Of a stretch of DNA of 64,000 bases, positions 44,390 to 56,110 are shown piece after piece. Every line of letters begins with the position of its first letter. Position 1 is the first letter of the stretch. The notes below the pieces were generated by a model. The model was not told the DNA's origin and ran no database searches. It saw only the letters and a list, made by a program, of their open reading frames with translations. This stretch comes from Terebella lapidaria. Lineage: Eukaryota > Annelida > Polychaeta > Terebellida > Terebellidae. Both the position numbers and the translations under genes were made by a program. The stretch lies in assembly GCA_949152475.1 (NCBI GenBank), contig OX424570.1, positions 25,168,694 to 25,232,693 of the forward strand. Direction: 5' to 3'.

Positions 44390-45953
44390 TAAAATCAAAG
44401 CTGATGACCCTTACATTTGTCGACCTTGGGCGATAAAAGGGAATTTGGATCGTACGACCATTGATCATATAGCAAATGATGTGGAATGGACTATCGAAAA
44501 ATACAAAATTAATGCGGGAAATCGATAATGAATATATTAAAGCTATAATCACTTTTAGAATTGACAAAATTTATTCATTCTGCGGTAGCTTTATATTGTC
44601 TATAGAATGAGAAATCGTACAAATTTGAGTCTGAAAATGTGTATTATATCCCTAAATTGAGTTGCCAAATCAAGATTCAAATTCGGGTCAGTCAATCTCG
44701 CATCAGTTTTTTCCTCAAAGCGGCCCGCCTTGCGGGCGAGTTCTACACAGAGTCTCATGACGTCATTGATATTTGTCTAGATACAGTGGCAACCGGCAAT
44801 GTAGGCAGGCCGATCATTCTCTATCCACTGTATTCATGCACGATTAAGGCTGATTTTAAAATTGATTCTAACTTAAAAGCAGAGCTATTGCGACTTTTCG
44901 ATTTTGACCTTTTCCGTGTCCTTGACCTTGTCGCTCAATATTGTGCTGTAAAATTTCGCAATGTTGTTTCTATTATCAAGGCATGTCTCCTGAACGAAAA
45001 CGGTTCAAAAAGATTGAAAATGGCTTCGCAACATGTCATGGTCTTGAATTTCAGTACACCCAAAGTAAAAAATTGTGACCCCCAATTTTTCGACTTTGGG
45101 CGATAATAAGTTTTCGTCGTACTACCATCGGCTTCACACAATACGATCGGGAATTGGTCAAAGATAAATACAAAAAATAGTTGGAAAAATTATTATTGAG
45201 TAGAACCGGAGTTGTAGACAATTATGTGATTTTCACTGTTTCCGTTGTCATGGCAACCTGTTTCATCCGATTTTGACGAAATTTGTGGAGAACCGAGTCA
45301 CTACCATAACGCTTCAGCCCTATAAATTATAATTTTCAATTGATTGGATTGTGTGTCGTCGAGTTATGAGCGCAGGCATGCACTGAAAAGTCGCTGTAAA
45401 AAAAATAATCAATGTCGGGCTATAATGGAGAGTTTTCATTCTACGATAATCGATCGTACACCATGCGATTCGGAATTGGCCAAAGAAAAATACAAATATT
45501 GATGGAAAAGTTAATATCAAGTAGAACTGGAGTTATAGCCAATTATGTGATTTCCACGTTTTCTGTTGCCATGACAACCTCTTCCATCCGATTCCGACAA
45601 AATGTAAGGAGAACCGTACCACTGCCATAACGCTTCGGTCCTATAAATTTCAGATTGATCAGATTGAATGTCTCTGACTTATGAGCGCAGACATTTGCAC
45701 TGAAAAGTTGCTGGCAAAAAATAACCAAATTGGACCCCAAATTTTTCGACATCGGGCGATAATGGAGAATTTTCGTCGTGCGATCATTCGCCGTACACCA
45801 AACGATCGGGAATTGGCCAAAGAAAAATACAAAAATAGTTGGAACAATTATTATCAAGTAGAACCGGAGTTCTACCATTTATGTGGTTTTCACGTTTTCT
45901 GTTGCCATGGCAACCACACCGCTTCATCCCTGTTAGTTTGAAGTCTATAGAAC
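44390..45953. repeat. Tandem satellite, period about 335 bp
   Basis: The block GGGCGATAATGGAGA.TTTTCG, followed by CGATCGGGAATTGGCCAAAG, AAATACAAAAATAGTTGGA, TTGCCATGGCAACC, TAACGCTTC.GTCCTATAAAT and GAGTTATGAGCGCAG, repeats with starts near 45087, 45415 and 45752. A more diverged unit lies near 44400. A 155-codon plus-strand frame (44639-45106) runs into the first unit. I recognise no domain in it and do not call it a gene. The last unit is cut by the 10-kb element and resumes at 55995. Confidence 0.75.
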
Positions 45954-46879
45954 CACAGTGCCGAAACCGACTATGGTAACGCGCATTACCATAGTCAAAA
46001 ATGGCGACAGGCACTTGTGGTTCGAATTTGCTCGTGAATTTCTATGCATATAACGTGTATAAATCGAGGGGATCTTTGAAATATAGCGATATTGATACAT
46101 GTAGATTAATCCCGATTATGTGCAATGAGTCATTTGGTGATATATCAGTGGAAACGGAGTGTGGACAATTGTGTCCTGACTAGGGTAACGCGAATGTCAG
46201 ACTATGGTAATGTGATTTGTAGGAATTTTAATGACTATGGCAATGCGATGGGGTTTTCGTACATAAACAAATTTCTATGTCAACATAACAATGATTTGAG
46301 GGGTAGAATATATGTGTTGAAAACTCTCGAATCGTCTGTTAGTATCACAAATCCATGTAAAAAAAACATATGCGATTTTATTACTGTACACAGGTCAGCA
46401 ATTCCATCAATGTTATTATTTCAGACCCATGCTACACATGATGAGAAACACCAAGTTGTCGATTAGACTCATTAATGCCTAGGTCACATTTGCACCGGTC
46501 GCCGGCCGATGCGAATACATCGATGGTTCTCACCGATGTTCCGGCCGCCGGTAACTTTTTTCAGGTATCTTCTACATATCTCTCAAGTGGTCATGGAAGC
46601 ACCGGGCATTGGCAGATCACCCGTGGACACCTATCCGGACATCGTACACTGACCGGCCGGCATACGTAGGAATTGGGGGAAAATGTGTGCCTTGATGCCT
46701 ACGGGAGACCAACCAGTCACCTAGCAGGCATCGGCCGGTGACCGACTGACGTCCGGACGGTTCTTCCCTGGCGGCCGAAAGATCGGCCGATTGCCGGACG
46801 GGTGCCGGACAGTCTGCCTCCGATATATAAAGGCAGTCGGTGGTTGCCCGCCAGATACACATTAGATGGTGCGTAGAGT

Positions 46880-47042
46880 GTCCATGCAAAATTACAGAAT
46901 TCTTCGAACTTTCTCATAGATTGGGAATGCTTGAAGTCTCCATGATGCTCCCTCTCCAGCTCTGTCATCGAAGTATCAAAATAACCATATAGCAGGGCGT
47001 CTCATCAGCCACGGCCGGATCCACCATCTCCGGCGGCGGCGA
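46880..47042 (-). pseudogene. PIF/Harbinger nuclease, N-terminal remnant
   Basis: The minus strand encodes RRRRRWWIRPWLMRRP, then in another frame DTSMTELEREHHGDFK..MRKFEEF. This matches the conserved N-terminal block of Harbinger DDE nucleases (RRWWVRPWL..R...G.Y..L..EL...D...F..F.RM....F). A frameshift lies between the two parts. The catalytic domain that should follow is absent; the sequence instead passes into the subterminal repeats. It cannot encode an active protein. Confidence 0.75.
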
Positions 47043-47696
47043 CATTGCACCCTAGCAACCCTCTCCTTCTCCTGCGCCTCCCCCTTGATGGAGACGAGCA
47101 CGGATCTGCAGCCAAGCAAACCTCACTCTCTGAAGAGGAATTACCATCCTGCCAACTTTTTCTGGATACTGTATAGATTTGCCAGTAGATTTGTAGACTA
47201 AATATCCTGGAATAGACATAGAATCAATACCCAGTATTAAGTATTCCGAGAGAACAAAACAGGGTCCGTTATCCAATCTCATAGTCTGGGGACAGAAAGT
47301 CATATCAGGCATACGAAATAAGAGAAAACAAAAATGACAGGGAAACTCATGAACCACCCCCCCCCCCCCCTCCCAAAAAAAAATGGCCATTAGGAGGTGA
47401 AATCAGGTGTTCTGGAAAGAGTGAGCATTTCCTGCCCCACTAGTGGCACCCGTCATAAATTCCCAAAAATCAACATGCAAATAGATCTAGTTGCATGGCA
47501 TTCATGGATTTGGTGTATTTATCAACCAGATCATGGTGACGTCCATAGAATTTCCTGAAGGCAGCTATAAATCTTGGTAAAACATATTGCAGCAGTTTCG
47601 AGACTAGCTGGGCACTTCGATATACAAACTCCTCATATTTGCAAATAGTCTGGAATAGCGTATACAAATGTAAGTTGAGAAACAAACACACCATAT

Positions 47697-48057
47697 AGAT
47701 AGATAGATAGATTATACTGACGTAACCCTGTAAGGGAACTTGCCTTACCACCATCCGACCAACTTTGGTCCGCGATATATTGGTGGCGCGTCGCCGCAGT
47801 GCAGCGCCTGGCATATTTTTGGTTCCCGTGTATGAATGTAGTGTATGGACGGGATTTTCTGGTGTACTGCATTGATGGGTATTTGTAGCGCGGCCCATGA
47901 CAGATCCGGGTACGCCTAGTGAACTAGGTTTCTGCCCCTTCACCACCGCCGATACACCGAGTGCAGCTGTCTACAATGTATCACCTGGTCACCATATTAG
48001 TGTCCGCTCCAGGCCGACGGACTGAGAAGTGAGGGGTAACCCTTGACTTCTCAGTCC
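47697..48057 (-). mobile_element. Short SINE-like insertion ending in a TATC microsatellite
   Basis: About 360 bp of unrelated, GC-richer DNA separates two parts of the reverse-transcriptase frame that should be adjacent. On the minus strand it starts with GGACTGAGAAGT, which pairs with ACTTCTCAGTCC 15 bases later to form a perfect 12-bp hairpin. It ends in four TATC repeats. A microsatellite 3' end suggests a SINE or a short LINE-driven insert. I see no tRNA-type A/B box that I trust, so the class is open. Confidence 0.5.
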
Positions 48058-48579
48058 TATGCTGGTGACACAGGAATGTTGCTGCGTAGAAAAGGGAAAT
48101 TGACTATAGGAACATTGAAATCATCACGTTTGTCCTACAATCTGGTTGATTATGGAGCAGAATTGGGGCCAAAATTAATGACATGTCATATTTTGCTATA
48201 TTCAATTTTTATCTCGAGATTATAGAAAGCTAAACTATCAATTGTAGACATGTGAACTTCAGATTGTAGAAAGCACAAACAACAATAGGTACATTATTTG
48301 TTTAAAACTCTAATATTTAAACTTTTTCGTCAAAATCAACAAACCATATGTGTGAAGAAAGGAAAATAAAATTTATATTTTAATAGTCTATGATTCAGTA
48401 AAATACAATAAAAAAACAACACTTTAAATAAGTGGTTTTCTCCTTACGTAGTTCTATAGTTTATATGTTTCTGATTCACGTTCTGTCATTCATCCATTGA
48501 CAATTCGGCATTCAGAAATCTATCTTCTGCATTTTGACATTTTGAAGTTCGTGTTGGAAAGTCTACAAATGACTCTCGC

Positions 48580-50466
48580 ATGTGGAACAGAGGGCGCGTG
48601 AAGCGATATGAGTTTTGTTAATGTGAAACCGAATACTCCCTCACGCCATGCCACCCACACACCCGTGCAAGACGGTTCACTCGCGGGGGGGAACTTGAAC
48701 GCCTATCGGTATGCATCATGCTGATGATAGTGTTTGTGAATGGGAATAACTAGGCATATATATTTCCTACATCCAAAACATTATATTTAAAAATTATTAT
48801 ATCATTGTAAGTTATGCAAGTTACGTGTGTGTTTCTTCCTATTTTGTCATGTCCATTCATGTCATGTCCATTCCTTTATTCATTCCATGTTTGCAATACT
48901 ATTTGAAAAAAGCTTTGGAGACATATAATTTTATTGTATATCAACAACAACAACAACAACCGCAAGTACACGACAAGTTGTTTTTGTTAGTTTCGCGGAA
49001 ATATATATATTCTGGATTCTATGCACATAATGGTGATAAGATGGCACATAAATATGGTCACTCATTGGGATTGGTTAATTTTTTTTCAAAATCATAATTT
49101 AGGGAAAAATATCATGTGCAAGAACATACTAAAAGTTTTGTGATGAGTTAGAATCACCAAAAATTGTGTGTTTACCACAACAAAGACAATATTTATGACA
49201 AAGAACCCTTGCGATGGACCGTGTAAAGATGTTTATTCCACAGTTAGACTCAACAAGACGAGCAATAATATCAGTACATTATAAAAATAGAATATATTTT
49301 CAAAATTCAGTTACACTTCAATATTATCAATTAACAAGCTAACTCCTACACAAATAAATCATACAAGGGAGGTTACAGACAACTGAGGCCAGCAGAACTG
49401 AAGTACAGTAAATAGCTGAACACGAATGAAATTATATTCATCCTACAAATACTAGTACATGTATAAATGCCTTGACCACATATTCGTAAAAAATTGTTTA
49501 TCAGAAAATGATAAATTACTGTGCTTATGTTATTAAATGAACCAAACTAGATATAAATTTCACAGACCATGCAGGACTGACACACATACATGTCTAAGCA
49601 CGCTGCTAACACAGCTTGGAAATTCAGGAAGTCCAAAATAGCAATTTAAATGTGCTTCTGCACTGAATACATTGTCTGTAATAGATATATTGTTTGAATC
49701 AGGTATATCACAAACATATTAGTCTGTTATGAATGTGATCAATGTGTATACAAGTTCTTGGAAAATTTCAACTTTAAAACTTTGTGAAACCATCATTGAG
49801 CATCAAATCCTATACATGTACTACATAGGGAATGCTTCTGAACATGAACAAAACATACTTCATCATACCAAGTACATACCGGGTATGCATTTACATTTTT
49901 ACTACCAAACTCATTATTTATCACACTATCAGCTCAAAGTTCAAGATGTTGAAGACAACATCTTGAGTGTCACCCCCTTTCAGTCAGCTTTCGATCAGGA
50001 GCCATGCCTCCTTCAGTTCACCTGTGGTCTTGATGCTGATTTCAGTCAGTCGATTATCTTGACTTCAGGCCATAACATCAGTCATCACCTAACAAAAATT
50101 TGAAAGAAACATGTTGAATTCCAATACACATGTATGCAACTATCAGGTCATAACTTGATCATTTTATTATATTTATATAACAAAAATGCAGAATATCTTG
50201 GATGATAAACTTTAACAATTTGTAATTCACCTGTCAAAAATCATCAATTGCAGTTAAACCATCCAATGGCGCACCCACTTGCACCTAAAAAGTGGAAGAA
50301 ATATCCAGTAGAAATGTATATTTATAGGCTATTACTATGTGGCGATTTCACCCAAAGATCACGGCCAAAGGAGATTTTTGTAAACACTACTCTTGTTTTG
50401 GCCGCTTCGTATTCGAAGCACGTGCGCTACATAGCAACGCCCTCTAATCCTCTCGCTCCATTGTAC
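48580..50466. other. Interior of the 5-kb element, no recognised protein
   Basis: This part contains a short CAA microsatellite near 48942-48962 and AT-rich DNA. A plus-strand frame of 124 codons at 49729-50103 has no domain I know. TTTATT near 49233 could be a minus-strand polyadenylation signal. Upstream of the next feature, CACGTG (near 50419) and TTACGTCA (near 50480) are E-box- and CRE-like words. Confidence 0.35.
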
Positions 50467-51034
50467 TGTAACAATGGCCTTACGTCATCACTCGTGTCTC
50501 GTTTATTTAAGAGTTATAAATACTCTGAAGCCGTCTTGTTCAGTGGAGTTGTCTCAGTGCTGGCAAGGCCAGAGGACGACGGAGGGCTCGGGCATGAGCT
50601 CTATGTCCGTACTCACCGGCTAAGGCCCGCAGGGGCCCTTGGGACGATTCCCATAGGGGGCCCAGGAGGGAGACCGTGATGATTCGGGGCCCTGTGATCA
50701 CCGGTCTCTCGCCCTGGGATGGTTTGACACAGGCTCTGGCAGACCGTCGGGCTGTCCAGGGTTCCAACCCTGTGGCAGTGCCGTCGGCGAGGCCGGCCAG
50801 CAACATGCCCACGTGTGCGAGTTCTGTGGTGCCGCTCCCATGGCATCTGAGGCTCTGCATACGGCAACATTACCACAATAATGTATATGTTGTATGTGAT
50901 GATGTTGATAATGATGTGTTATGATGTGATGTAGATCTATGATCAGCCGGACTCGTCTGGACAGACTGTTACCTGGTTGTAGTTCTAGTAATTACGACAC
51001 CGGCCACGTGCACCCTGTGTGCTGTGAGCGTCAA
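50467..51034 (+). promoter_or_regulatory. GC-rich island with TATA box; possible solo LTR
   Basis: Within AT-rich DNA this stretch is strikingly GC-rich from about 50530 to 50870. TATAAATA lies near 50515, and GTTCAGTGG, a plausible initiator, is about 25 bases further on, so it resembles a polymerase II promoter. It could also be a solo LTR: TGTAAC at about 50467 and CGTTACA at about 51034 would be inverted ends, but no target duplication convinces me. A GGGTTCCAACCC word resembles a tRNA B box, but no tRNA folds around it that I can see. Confidence 0.3.
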
Positions 51035-51121
51035 ACGTTACAACTAGTACATGGATAAACGAATAGTAGTATTTTATTTTCAAAATCTACAGAATGGATC
51101 TGTACATAATGGGCACAAGAT

Positions 51122-52403
51122 CACGGTGGCTAGGCGTTACGCGTTATTCAGGGAGTACCGCGTAAAATCGTGAGTATTACGCGTTATTCGTGAGGAAATT
51201 GCACAGGAAACGACATAGGTCCCCATTTCAAATGAGGTGACTTCGTGAAAATGTTCATTTACTTCCTAAAATTTCGTATCCACGGAACATCCCAATGAGC
51301 AAACATCACGTATGATACTATGAATTACTTGCATACATCGTTATATCTACGAAATGGACACACAGTTCGTGACATCACCCGCACGCTTGCGACTTGTTAG
51401 TGAAATATCATCGGCTGTCAATTGAAACCAACAAAGTGCATGTTGGTAAATCATGGAATGCTCGCAGAAATCTTTCTTTATTGTTACATCATGCAACCAG
51501 TTGTTTTTATCGAGTATTTTATGAAATGAGAAGCTTTTTATGGTTTACGCGTATCAGCCTGAGGGCGAAAATCTAAACACGCGTTACAGCATGAGGAAAC
51601 ATGTGAGCGTTGTCGGGGATGGTCGAGGTGGCAATGCATACACAAATATTTTTAAGTATGATTTGAGGCTGTACATGTTCCAAAGATGATACTTCTCACT
51701 TTGTTATCGTTATCCTCCATATGTTCCTCCCATTTTTCATAAATCTGAAATTGACAATACTGAGAGCTTTTCGTGTCTTTTACACAAAATCTCACCAAGT
51801 GAAAACATTATCCCTTGAACTTGAATTTATCCCATCAATTGAGCAGTAAAAACTGGAGAAAAATTGGAGAAAAATACATTAAAAAAAGAAATATCCCAAC
51901 CTCAACAAAATATTTACTCATTCACATATGCGTAATGCCCTCACACAAATCGCGTAAAGTATAGCAAATAAACAAATGACACATTCAACCTAGATTCGTG
52001 GTGCTTTCGACCATTCTGAAACATTTTCAAGACAGGCACACGTGAAGCCCATAATATCAATATTATAGAACTCTCATTCTATTCACTTCACAATAATGCC
52101 GATATGTAACATTTTTCAACCCCAAAACCGAGGAGAGCGGCTGTCGAAGCTACATTGTCAGATATTGTACAGCCGAAGGTATCGCTACACTGGCTCATTT
52201 ATTTAATTTAAACTCTCAACAACAATCATGAATAATGTTCCGTGCAAAACCAAATCCGACATTTCAAAACGGTAAAATTAGAGAAATTGTATGTATTTCC
52301 TGCTAGAAGTCAACCAGAGGCTGCCATTTCCTCACGAATAACGCGTAATACTCATGATTTTACGCGGCACTCCCTGAATAACGCGTAACGCCTAGCCACC
52401 GTG
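51122..52403. mobile_element. 1.28-kb element with CACGGTG ends (Transib-like candidate)
   Basis: CACGGTGGCTAGGCGTTACG at the left and its complement at the right begin inverted repeats of about 80 bp. These contain ACGCGTTATTC twice, once in each half. AAGAT precedes the left end and AAGAC follows the right end, a 5-bp duplication with one difference. CAC-initial heptamer-like ends plus a 5-bp target are Transib features. There is no transposase, so it is a non-autonomous copy. Confidence 0.6.
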
Positions 52404-52545
52404 AAGACGGGCGTTTGCTTCGTTTTCATCTTCGCCGATTACAAGCCTATGAGCCCTAATTATCGCCCAGACACCACATTTCGGAGATTAAATTCAACAA
52501 AATAAATTGATTGTGTACTTCGAAAACTTGAAAAGGAGAACTCAC

Positions 52546-52725
52546 CGTTACTTTTCTCTTCATTAAAAATCTTTTGGCGGAGTAAAAACGGCTGGTAGAT
52601 GGGTACAACATGAAAGTTTTGTCGAAGTCGGCTGTGCAGACACCAGCCAGGAGTCTTTGCGCCGGCAGGGAGGCCGCATCAGGGGGGCATTTAGTTTCAC
52701 ACTCCTCTAACATACTTCGCGACAT
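52546..52725 (-). CDS. Possible first exon inside the 5-kb element
   Basis: The minus-strand frame starts MSRSMLEECETKCPPDAASL and runs 60 codons to KRKVT. There a strong donor GTGAGT follows in phase 0. Just upstream lies a short array of CATACTTCRYGA units. No matching downstream exon was found, and I do not recognise the peptide. It may be a captured host exon or part of a former transposase gene. Confidence 0.25.
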
Positions 52726-53880
52726 ACTTCATGACATACTTCGTGACATACTTCAAGACTTCCAAATACGAACTTTCAAACATGAACTTTCAAACACGAA
52801 CTTTTGAAATACAAAAGATAGATTTGTGAATGCGGAATTAGCAATGGGTAAATGACAAAACCTGAATTATATACATATAAGGTGTTGAAATACGGAAGAA
52901 GAAAACAAGTTATATAAAGTTTTCTTTGCATTTTACTGAATTGAACAATGAAATATAAATTTTATTTTCCTTTCTTCACACATATGGGTAGTTCATTTTT
53001 GAAATGTTTAAACATTAAAGTTTAAATGATACAGTTTTAAACAGAGAATGTGCCTATTGTTGTATGTGTTTTCTACAATCTGAAGTTTACATGTCTTTAA
53101 TTGATAGTTTAGCAATCTATGATCTCAAGGTAAAATTGAATATAGCAAAATATAACATGTCATTAATTTTGGCCCCAATTCTGCTCCATAGTTGATAGGT
53201 TAGAATCATTATCAATCTCCAACCTCAGGTCTAAATAGTTGGAAAAATTAGCGGAGTCTGTAGTATTCTCAATTTCAAGTTCCTTAGGATATATGACATC
53301 CAAATAGTCAGCAAACTTGGGATTATTTAGCCACAATACATCGTCTATATATCGGAAAGGGAAATTATAATTACATGTTATTTTTTTAGCACCTCCTCGT
53401 TGAAAATGTTGAATGAAATCTGATTCATGTGAGTATAAAAACAGGTTTGCCAAAAGTGGTTCACGGTTTGTACCCATGGGAAAACCAATAGTTTGTTGAA
53501 ATATTCGACCACCAAATTCCAAAAATATTATCAATCAGAAAATCAACCACATCTATTTCAGTATATTTGTGTGGGGCATCAGAGTCGCCTTTAAAAAAAT
53601 AGCGATATCATATTTAACTACAATATAGTGGTATCGATGTTGTCCTTTTTTTAGAGAAAAATGAATTATTCATGAATTTTTTGAGCTGAGACTTAAGTTC
53701 AGAATGGGGTATAGTTGTGCACAAAGTGGAAAAATCAAATGTTTTGATAAACGTTTCTTTTTAAAGTGTGTGAGCATGTAGATATTCCAGTGAAGATTTA
53801 GAATTTTTTAATATCCAAATTTGGTTTATACTACTTCTAGAATAGATGGTTTCACAGAGACCTTGTTTAATTTTTAACAA

Positions 53881-54637
53881 TATAACAGTTAATTGCTTAG
53901 ACAAAAGTCAATAGACAATTAATTAATAGACGAACTAATAGACAAAAAATTAATTAATACAAATTGATTAATAGACAAAAAATTAATTAATAAAAATTAT
54001 TGGACAATTCGCTGTGCTCGTTTATGTAGGCCTACAGTAGTATGTAGGCCTCCAAAACATAATGGGTATCGACCGGACAACCAATCATGCCCTACAGGAG
54101 ACCCCACGGTGCCCAACTGATAACTGCTAGGTGACCGTCTGGTATGTACAAATCGTCCGAATATCGGAAAAGCACCTCCCGCACATCCATCGGTGCCTGG
54201 CATGATACCCTGCGATCACCATCTCGTATGAAGGAACCGATCGATAATCTGAAAAACACCCACCGCACATCCATCGGCGCATGACAGGATACCCTACGGT
54301 GATCGCCTGGTGAGCTACTCTTATCAATCGGACGATAAATTTGGTTGATCCCCTCGTCGCCCGGTGGGCACATGGAGGAGCTGTGATCGGTCGCGGGCAG
54401 GTGTGATAATGATTGACAGGCGATGTCATTTTTTCCACCGGTCGCCGCAAGAAAATAACTCTGCGTTATTTTCTTCCGATGCCTCCACCGACGTGTCTAC
54501 GATGTCCGATTGATGCCCGATAGTCACGGATGACCCTCCGGCGCTCGGTGGGTGACCGGTAGGAATGGCCAAATTTCAGCCTTTTCACGCATCGTAACCA
54601 CATCCGAGGAGGCATCGGTGCAAATGTGACTTAGGCA
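53881..54637. repeat. Right arm of the Harbinger element: AT repeat and subterminal units
   Basis: From 53.88 to 54.0 kb a loose array of ATTAATTAATAGACAAAAA occurs at the 5' edge of the retroelement. From 54.05 to 54.6 kb, GC-richer subterminal DNA includes two related units of about 105 bp that share CGCACATCCATCGG, GATACCCT and CGATC words. Reading frames here are by-products of the repeats. Confidence 0.5.
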
Positions 54638-55994
54638 TAAACGCAGGGTCTGGCATAAAGCCACATTTGAATTTTTACAAATCTGTGCATTTCCTCATCA
54701 AGTTGTCAGAAATATTGAGGAATTTCAAAACCGGAGACAATGCAGGTTTGACTTAAGCTTGCTCTCAAACTATGCGAGTCAGTTGCAGCAACTCGGTTGC
54801 ACGCCAATCGCATGCGATCTGGTCGCGACGACCGTCACTGGTCACACTGTGCGTTCGAGTCGCATGTAAATTGACGATATTTGAGTGCGATTTGTAGAGA
54901 ATCTGTATGCAGAGGGGTGTTTTGTCGTGTGAACATGGATCACCATTAATGTAGGCTATGTCGGTGCCTTTTCACGACAACAATCATGCCTAAAATACGA
55001 AAGAGAAGGCAAAATAGAGGTCACAAAAAGACTGTATTGGGCCTGTGGGTCATACCTGTGGCACCGTTCATCTTGTTTTCTATCTAGGTATGTCGGCACT
55101 GACTTTGGGACCATGCTCTTTGGGCCTCTGGGAATTTGCACCCCAATTATACTACTATTATGTTACTCCATGATCCACTAAATGTGGATGCCATTCTATC
55201 TGTCTGCCACCTTTATCTCTGAAAAATATACTGAGTAGTAAGAAGAGTAGGGAGTTTAGTTCGAGGCAACTTTCTTACAACTGATGTGCGAGGGGTAAGA
55301 AGTGTCCCATTTTATTAAAATATTTCAATATTTACTAGTCCGACGCACCCTTGTCCTTGTTCCTGTATTCAGGGTAGTGACGTCGGAAAGTGACAGACTG
55401 TGTTTTCATATATTGGAACATCGTCTGCAAACTGTGTTCAGTCCATCGATCTTATTGTCATCGAATTATCAATTGTCAGCATGTTACCGGGACTAATCAC
55501 ATGCGACTCAGTGGTTCTACATCTCACGATGTCAGCATGGGTTTCAGCACGGTACTACACCCAGTATATGCAGTTTTAAAGAAAAAAATGCACTGTAACC
55601 TGAAATAGACCTATTCATTGTAGTAAATATACGAATATCGTATGAATTACAGTTCAATTCTTGTGTTACCGGTATATATTATTTGCAGTGAAGTAGTGAA
55701 TGCATTACCATAGTCGACACTATGCGTTACCATAGTCAATGTATCCTTGGACTCGGCCATTACCATAGTCAGCCACGATTTTCAGTCGCCGATATCTCGT
55801 AGAAAAAGTCTACTTTTCCGTAACTCGCCTTATTAATTATGTGCAGCACAATCAACTTTATATCACAGACTTCTGAATGCTTCAAAATAGCCTCTCATTC
55901 AAGTTGTTAAGCTCGATCAAATTCGAACCACAAATACCTGCCGCCATTTTTGATTATGGTAATGCGCGTTACCATAGTCGGTTTCGGCACTGTG
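54638..55994. other. Right part of the 10-kb Transib-like candidate
   Basis: This is the outer element's own DNA to the right of the Harbinger insertion. It has no recognised coding region. GCATTACCATAGTC-type words lie at about 55706, 55731, 55757 and 55960, mirroring those at 45.97-46.24 kb. Confidence 0.5.
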
Positions 55995-56110
55995 AGAACG
56001 ATATGTTGTCGAGTTATCCGCGCGGAAGGACAGACAGACCCAGATACAATACCCTCTCCCCCTATCGGGGCGAGTGTAAAAATGAGCTGTATGAACGTCG
56101 TTTGTGGAGC
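55995..56110. repeat. Resumption of the interrupted satellite unit
   Basis: After the AGAAC duplication the sequence reads GATATGTTGTCGAGTTATCC, the counterpart of GTCGAGTTATGAGCGC inside satellite units at 45350 and 45665. The 10-kb element therefore landed inside one satellite unit. Confidence 0.6.

Follow-up and report, generated by a model that had tools for sequence, protein, structure and literature searches.

The element at positions 45954–55994 of a 64-kb stretch of the Terebella lapidaria genome (contig OX424570.1; hereafter the window) is very probably one copy of a medium-copy, non-autonomous family of cut-and-paste DNA transposons, named here the CACAGTG family. This estimate covers the family and its mode of movement, and not its superfamily. 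CACAGTG-family elements are ~1.9 kb long, lack a long open frame, have 81-bp terminal inverted repeats (TIRs) and carry a 14-bp motif that is present five times per end.

Exact CACAGTG heptamers in inverted orientation were read directly at both ends of the window copy and AGAAC was read directly on either side of it (Table 1), as a sequence-only reading of this DNA had reported. The inverted arms span 81 nt at 94% identity. The heptamer by itself carries no weight, since CACAGTG was counted 7 times in the window against 9.1 times expected by chance. Direct reading also bore out the statement that no nonamer lies 12 or 23 bp from the heptamer (4/9 and 1/9 bases agree with ACAAAAACC), in which the ends differ from a V(D)J recombination signal. 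The size of 10 kb given in that reading was revised: the actual element is ~1.87 kb and holds a nested ~8.2-kb insert near element position 512. Aligned to the 1.9-kb element L012, the window copy matched as three pieces (~93%), with ~8.2 kb of non-matching sequence separating the first piece from the second, and relatives without the insert were continuous across the insertion point (GATTAAACGCAGGG in L010). The window copy had been inserted into a dispersed repeat before the unrelated 8.2-kb insert entered it.

Further copies were sought in the genome from which the window comes (762 Mb, 438 contigs). The 77-base end gave at least 41 matches (40/379 candidates scored). The outer 22-mer occurred exactly 294 times, 147 per strand, against 0 for the reversed control, and 393 times with ≤3 mismatches (control 3); outer ends with a non-G next base (pattern CACAGTGCCGAAACCH) were found at 4 places (control 0; ~1 expected by arithmetic). 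The 20 stretches that followed the window's own end in the 77-base match list (9,951 bases each) were fetched, and both ends were present in 18/20. Together with the window these gave 19 paired copies, so that the further copies with shared ends that the sequence-only reading had proposed to look for do exist. Thirteen of the 19 were 1,873–1,990 bases long and the other six 2.8–10 kb. On contigs C1–C4 and the first part of C5, 43 end pairs were formed by hand from the first 100 exact ends (hereafter the C1–C5 pairs); 27 of them were spaced 1.68–2.26 kb, and two (21.7 and 45.2 kb) may not be single elements. Long pairs include C1:49383725-49405426, C5:55455-62319, C3:28743270-28747898, C1:54926932-54931357 and C3:36903826-36907964. 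Mean pairwise identity among 14 copies was 0.977 and 0.962 in the TIRs against 0.904–0.944 in the interior, the value of 0.977 being biased upward because the copies were picked by a TIR. An 18-mer TIR scan gave 0 matches on viral contigs and 9 in bacterial records against ~7.5 expected by arithmetic, and was not used as evidence. In the literature searched, judged mostly from titles and abstract openings, no paper was recognisable as describing the CACAGTG family.

Open frames listed for 8 elements in all six reading frames (≥90 codons, at most the six longest per element) agreed with the earlier remark that no transposase is visible: the longest frame was 166 codons, and it lay within the nested insert of the window. 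The longer copies L011, L025 and L028 consisted of CACAGTG-family sequence with extra stretches. In L013 and L014, ~2.1 kb of other sequence replaced ~560 family bases; this interior was unmatched in the other fetched stretches, had no listed frame >124 codons, and may be a decayed relic of an autonomous copy. The 3.48–3.50-kb copies L013 (C4:41404568-41408044) and L014 (C4:41380993-41384490) closely resemble each other, lie 20 kb apart and point in opposite directions. Their listed frames are almost the same, their interiors are repetitive and their duplications differ (GTCTC and GTTAT). The single-ended copies L016 and L019 were considered as autonomous candidates and set aside; internally, both match other dispersed repeats present in the fetched stretches.

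Target-site duplications (TSDs) were scored in the 19 paired copies. They were 5 bp long in 13/19 and 6 bp in 3/19 (L010, L017, L027), and when flanks of different copies were paired as a control, matches arose in 1/342 pairings at 5 bp and 0/342 at 6 bp. A 3-bp match was present in 2/19, in L009 (which also matches at 5) and in L026 (5-bp flanks agree 4/5). The 16 clear duplications were AT-rich (GC 15/83 bases against a background of 0.39, p 4e-5), preceded by C in 10/16 and followed by G in 11/16; within the 13 duplications of 5 bp, position 2 was T in 8 and position 4 was A in 8 (hand count). The target looks like C, N5 and G in order, with N5 AT-rich. Beside L010 stands a second version of its target, matching over 288 bases at 94%, in which ATAATG occurs singly, and an 81% copy of the target of L025 carries TAAAT once. 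The joined flanks of the window copy gave a 278-base match in L026 (70%) that is ungapped at the junction, and were found at 64 genomic places, at 30 of which the match extends ≥20 bases past the junction in both directions (hand count; 71–84% alike). This likeness, together with differences in length, indicates a dispersed repeat with unfilled copies and not an unfilled allele. Insertion is thereby supported by unfilled target sites in repeat copies.

Several observations weigh against a cut-and-paste family with a transposase encoded elsewhere. No clear duplication was seen in three of the paired copies (L018, L020, L026), and duplication length is not constant, so that the confirmation of 5-bp duplications proposed in the sequence-only reading succeeded for 13/19 and met a different length, which that reading had named as a refuter, in three. 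Among 15 junction-spanning repeat rows compared, several have gaps at the junction and are weaker proof, and the 30 rows that cross the junction of the window copy differ from the query length by about −2 to +65 bases, at unlocalised places. No autonomous partner was found in the window, in the 20 fetched stretches or in a comparison of the C1–C5 pairs with transposase matches, most long pairs lying outside the sequence read.

Within the TIR, the heptamer is followed by a 28-bp palindrome (GACTATGGTAACGC and its inverse) and then by AAAATGGCG at position 45. This last motif, 37 bp inside the heptamer, was present in 28/28 TIRs of 14 copies and fits the YY1 motif CGCCATNTT that excerpts of PMC7481187 give for ProtoRAG, but in the opposite orientation. 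In ProtoRAG, the spacer before the YY1 site, which stands at TR5, is 27 or 31 bp long, as stated in excerpts of PMC7481187 and PMC8289069. Its conservation in the CACAGTG family is not independent evidence, because the whole TIR is conserved. Further copies of the 14-bp motif lie at 225, 247 and 280 on the left side; the right side repeats four of the five end distances and has 258 in place of 247 for the remaining one. The array is thus mirrored, with five copies per end, and 10 copies per element were counted in 4/4 copies scanned (≤2 mismatches) against 0 in 20 shuffles of each. A transposase encoded elsewhere would bind the terminal and subterminal motifs and would cut exactly at CAC; the ends would then be joined to target strands cut with a 5-bp and sometimes a 6-bp stagger, which would leave the duplications.

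The genome also holds RAG1L–RAG2L transposons (RAGL elements). A PF12940 profile search gave 18 matches, the best of them L029 (6.1e-87), whose nearest solved structure is amphioxus RAG1L (6b40, E 7.5e-175), and by mutual similarity the RAG1L loci form at least three sequence groups. The ends of RAGL elements, by flank comparison of three loci, are CACATAGAAACGT, and the duplications at the two loci with both ends read (C7, C14) are AAAAG and TAACA, 5 bp long and AT-rich. The 13-mer CACATAGAAACGT was found at 22 places against 36 for its control, so that chance may account for most of its isolated occurrences. Ten of the 22 form five pairs around RAG1L loci (C1, C3, C7, C9, C14) with spacings of 9.4–13.5 kb, and one is next to the C2 locus. 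Identity among the C7, C9, C3 and C14 copies is 94–99% over their central pieces, and between C1 and C7 it is ~91%. An extra 3–4 kb is present in the C3 and C9 loci, and the RAG1L frame at C14 is shorter. At C7, open frames encode RAG1L (1046 codons, with a Cx2Cx3GHx4C tail) and RAG2L (494 codons; read through at C7 only). These elements likely moved recently. Further RAG1L groups (L034, L035/L037, L038, L045) are ~65–70% alike to the first group in DNA over the main matches, and some are decayed. The L034 locus is at C1:81376235, and loci of the L035/L038 group are at C12:27916267 and C5:16501824.

A search by RAG1 as a route to an autonomous copy therefore recovered real RAGL elements, whose readable ends are CACATAGAAACGT and not those of the CACAGTG family. 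None of the six RAG1L loci on C1–C5 lies inside any of the 43 C1–C5 pairs; the closest pair stands 1.96 Mb from such a locus and, with exact ends compared by eye, a single end comes no closer than 1.07 Mb. When RAG1L and RAG2L fragments of this genome were compared by tblastn with the window and the 20 stretches, RAG1L gave 0 rows and RAG2L one row (E 0.51), while another open reading frame (ORF; reverse-transcriptase-like by eye) gave ten. Between 14 CACAGTG-family copies and the C7 RAGL pieces, blastn found no shared DNA at E 0.01. A 71-aa C-terminal fragment of Hztransib matched the genome at RAG1L loci (8/8, the last decayed, E 1.44), and a C-terminal Transib motif did so in 7/7 matches; the same motif matches the solved Hztransib at 6.3e-25. 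No Transib is therefore visible by its C-terminal region, and a copy without that region would escape. The weak RAG1 match L045 (C1:66168521) was considered as a Transib and by eye is a decayed RAG1L of the L034 group. Domains of hAT type gave at least 150 genome matches (150/273 candidates scored), and 0/67 of those on C1–C5 lie inside the 43 pairs, three of the 67 being beyond the listed part of C5. KDZ gave 20 genome matches, seven on C1–C5, and Transposase_21 (PF02992) gave 4, three on C1–C5; by eye, none of the seven and 0/3 lie in a listed end pair.

That two inverted repeats bound the 10-kb stretch by chance is so improbable as to be negligible: the heptamer is not enriched in the window, but the repeat family, the duplications and the unfilled repeat copies refute it. 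For the mobilising enzyme of the CACAGTG family, a Transib/RAG-like (CMCT-clade) transposase, from an extinct Transib or another RAG1L group of this genome, is a plausible candidate that falls short of being probable. The CAC...GTG ends and mostly 5-bp duplications favour this group. Transib is its 5-bp member, and the CACAGTG family shares that length in the 13 copies with 5-bp duplications. Transib ends are also of CAC type in excerpts of PMC7204232, Hztransib has the 5-bp TSD GCTCG in an excerpt of PMC1852546, and for CMCT members in general an excerpt of PMC12730594 gives CA..TG ends in most cases and TSDs of 2–5 bp. ProtoRAG of amphioxus has CAC ends, 5-bp duplications and a YY1 site within the TIR, the last matched here in the opposite orientation, and RAG1L loci of several groups stand in the same genome. 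In P. imbricata and several deuterostomes, according to excerpts of PMC7204232, non-autonomous RAGL elements likewise combine a TIR pair and a TSD without intact genes. Against this enzyme, CACAGTG-family ends (CACAGTGCCGAAAC) are unlike the CACATAGAAACGT ends of the one local RAGL group compared, with which no TIR is shared; the TIR core also differs from the protostome RAGL consensus CACTWMCAAACKTYKBB given in excerpts of PMC7204232, with AAA at 11–13 instead of 8–10. The copies listed lack a transposase, and RAG1L and RAG2L are missing between their ends; searches with the C-terminal fragment and motif saw no Transib in the genome, and no RAG1L locus on C1–C5 falls within an end pair. The AT-rich targets, the 6-bp cases and the 81-bp TIR with its mirrored motif array pull away from RAG and Transib. 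Excerpts of PMC8289069 describe a GC lean in the target duplications of RAG, Transib and ProtoRAG, an argument weakened because the two local RAGL TSDs are AT-rich too. Of the suggestion that the element is a non-autonomous relative of Transib and RAG, non-autonomy, CAC ends and mostly 5-bp duplications thus stand; kinship is possible but unproven, because RAGL elements with readable ends have different ends and no Transib was found by its C-terminal region. That a RAG1L lineage of this genome (L034 or L035/L038 group) moves the CACAGTG family in trans is doubtful.

Convergence on the heptamer by elements moved by a hAT5/hAT6-like transposase is rather unlikely, though several features point that way. 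Subterminal repeats are usual in hAT elements, the hAT target rule is nTnnnnAn and hAT TIRs have the form YARNG; the motif array, the T and A preferences at positions 2 and 4 of the 5-bp duplications (a shortened form of that rule) and four of the five letters of CACAG fit, whereas base three of the TIR, C, does not. The genome is rich in hAT domains, but none of the 67 matches on C1–C5 lies inside the listed end pairs. According to excerpts of PMC12730594, hAT5 and hAT6 groups with 5-bp and 6-bp TSDs exist outside CMCT, and both lengths occur here (16/19). A different or undescribed superfamily is somewhat less likely again. It would accommodate AT-rich 5–6-bp TSDs with flanking C and G and CAC ends, which are not known to fit any group neatly; the lack of a partner agrees with it and is weak evidence, as most long end pairs lie outside the sequence read. 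EnSpm/CACTA elements, with subterminal repeats like those of the CACAGTG family, differ in having 3-bp duplications, against a 3-bp match in only two copies here, and no listed end pair contains PF02992. Their CAC..GTG ends, noted in an excerpt of PMC12730594, are shared.

Table 1. Features of the window copy (window coordinates) and, in the last row, RAGL loci of the same genome with both ends.
Feature	Position	Strand	Basis or remark
Target-site duplication AGAAC, left	45949..45953	.	direct reading; family-wide duplication test
Left 81-bp TIR, begins CACAGTGCCGAAACCGACTATGG	45954..46034	+	direct reading and inverted-repeat comparison
Heptamer CACAGTG	45954..45960	+	direct reading
Terminal palindrome, left: GACTATGGTAACGC and inverse back to back, 1 mismatch	45969..45996	.	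motif scan
YY1-type motif, left TIR: AAAATGGCG, other strand CGCCATTTT; TIR positions 45-53	45998..46006	-	
Three subterminal motif copies, left, 1-2 mismatches (46178, 46200, 46233)	46178..46246	+	motif scan
Nested insert, ~8.2 kb, boundaries accurate to a few bases	46466..54640	.	not part of CACAGTG family
Three subterminal motif copies, right (55702, 55724, 55757)	55702..55770	-	positions converted from insert-free element
Right 81-bp TIR	55914..55994	-	direct reading and inverted-repeat comparison
YY1-type motif, right TIR	55942..55950	+	
Terminal palindrome, right TIR	55952..55979	.	motif scan
Heptamer CACAGTG	55988..55994	-	direct reading
Target-site duplication AGAAC, right	55995..55999	.	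direct reading
RAGL loci with both ends	C7:27373894-27383469 (L039, L029, L040); C1:85232550-85242172; C3:39076989-39090514; C9:33530560-33543522; C14:19996041-20005424		

The nested insert has 26-nt inverted ends of its own (46472–46497 and 54616–54641, 92%) and holds inverted copies of ~400 bases (about 48151–48562 and 52786–53190; 80%) and ORF remnants, which we take to be a Penelope-type reverse transcriptase. By tblastn these remnants match a frame beside a RAG1L locus. A Pfam scan was run on seven frames, and among the six from the window it returned one match, below its cut-off. Directly left of the element, positions 45111–45915 are occupied by three copies of a 320–337-bp tandem unit, which belongs to a dispersed repeat with many genomic places.

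The CACAGTG family and its cut-and-paste movement are secure, and its superfamily is not. If a hAT5-like enzyme is the mover, the family would be a caution that a call of RAG kinship needs more than an exact CACAGTG end with a 5-bp duplication. If a RAG-type enzyme is the mover, hundreds of natural ends with the true heptamer of the recombination signal sequence (RSS) would stand beside RAGL transposons with open genes, so that a single animal would serve to study end recognition predating V(D)J recombination. Should RAG1L move the family in trans, it would be a RAGL-driven non-autonomous family of ~150–200 copies (half of 294 to 393 ends). Its ends would combine the RSS heptamer in exact form with a YY1-type site at constant spacing and an additional subterminal motif array, and would offer a natural set of substrates for asking how RAG end recognition changed.

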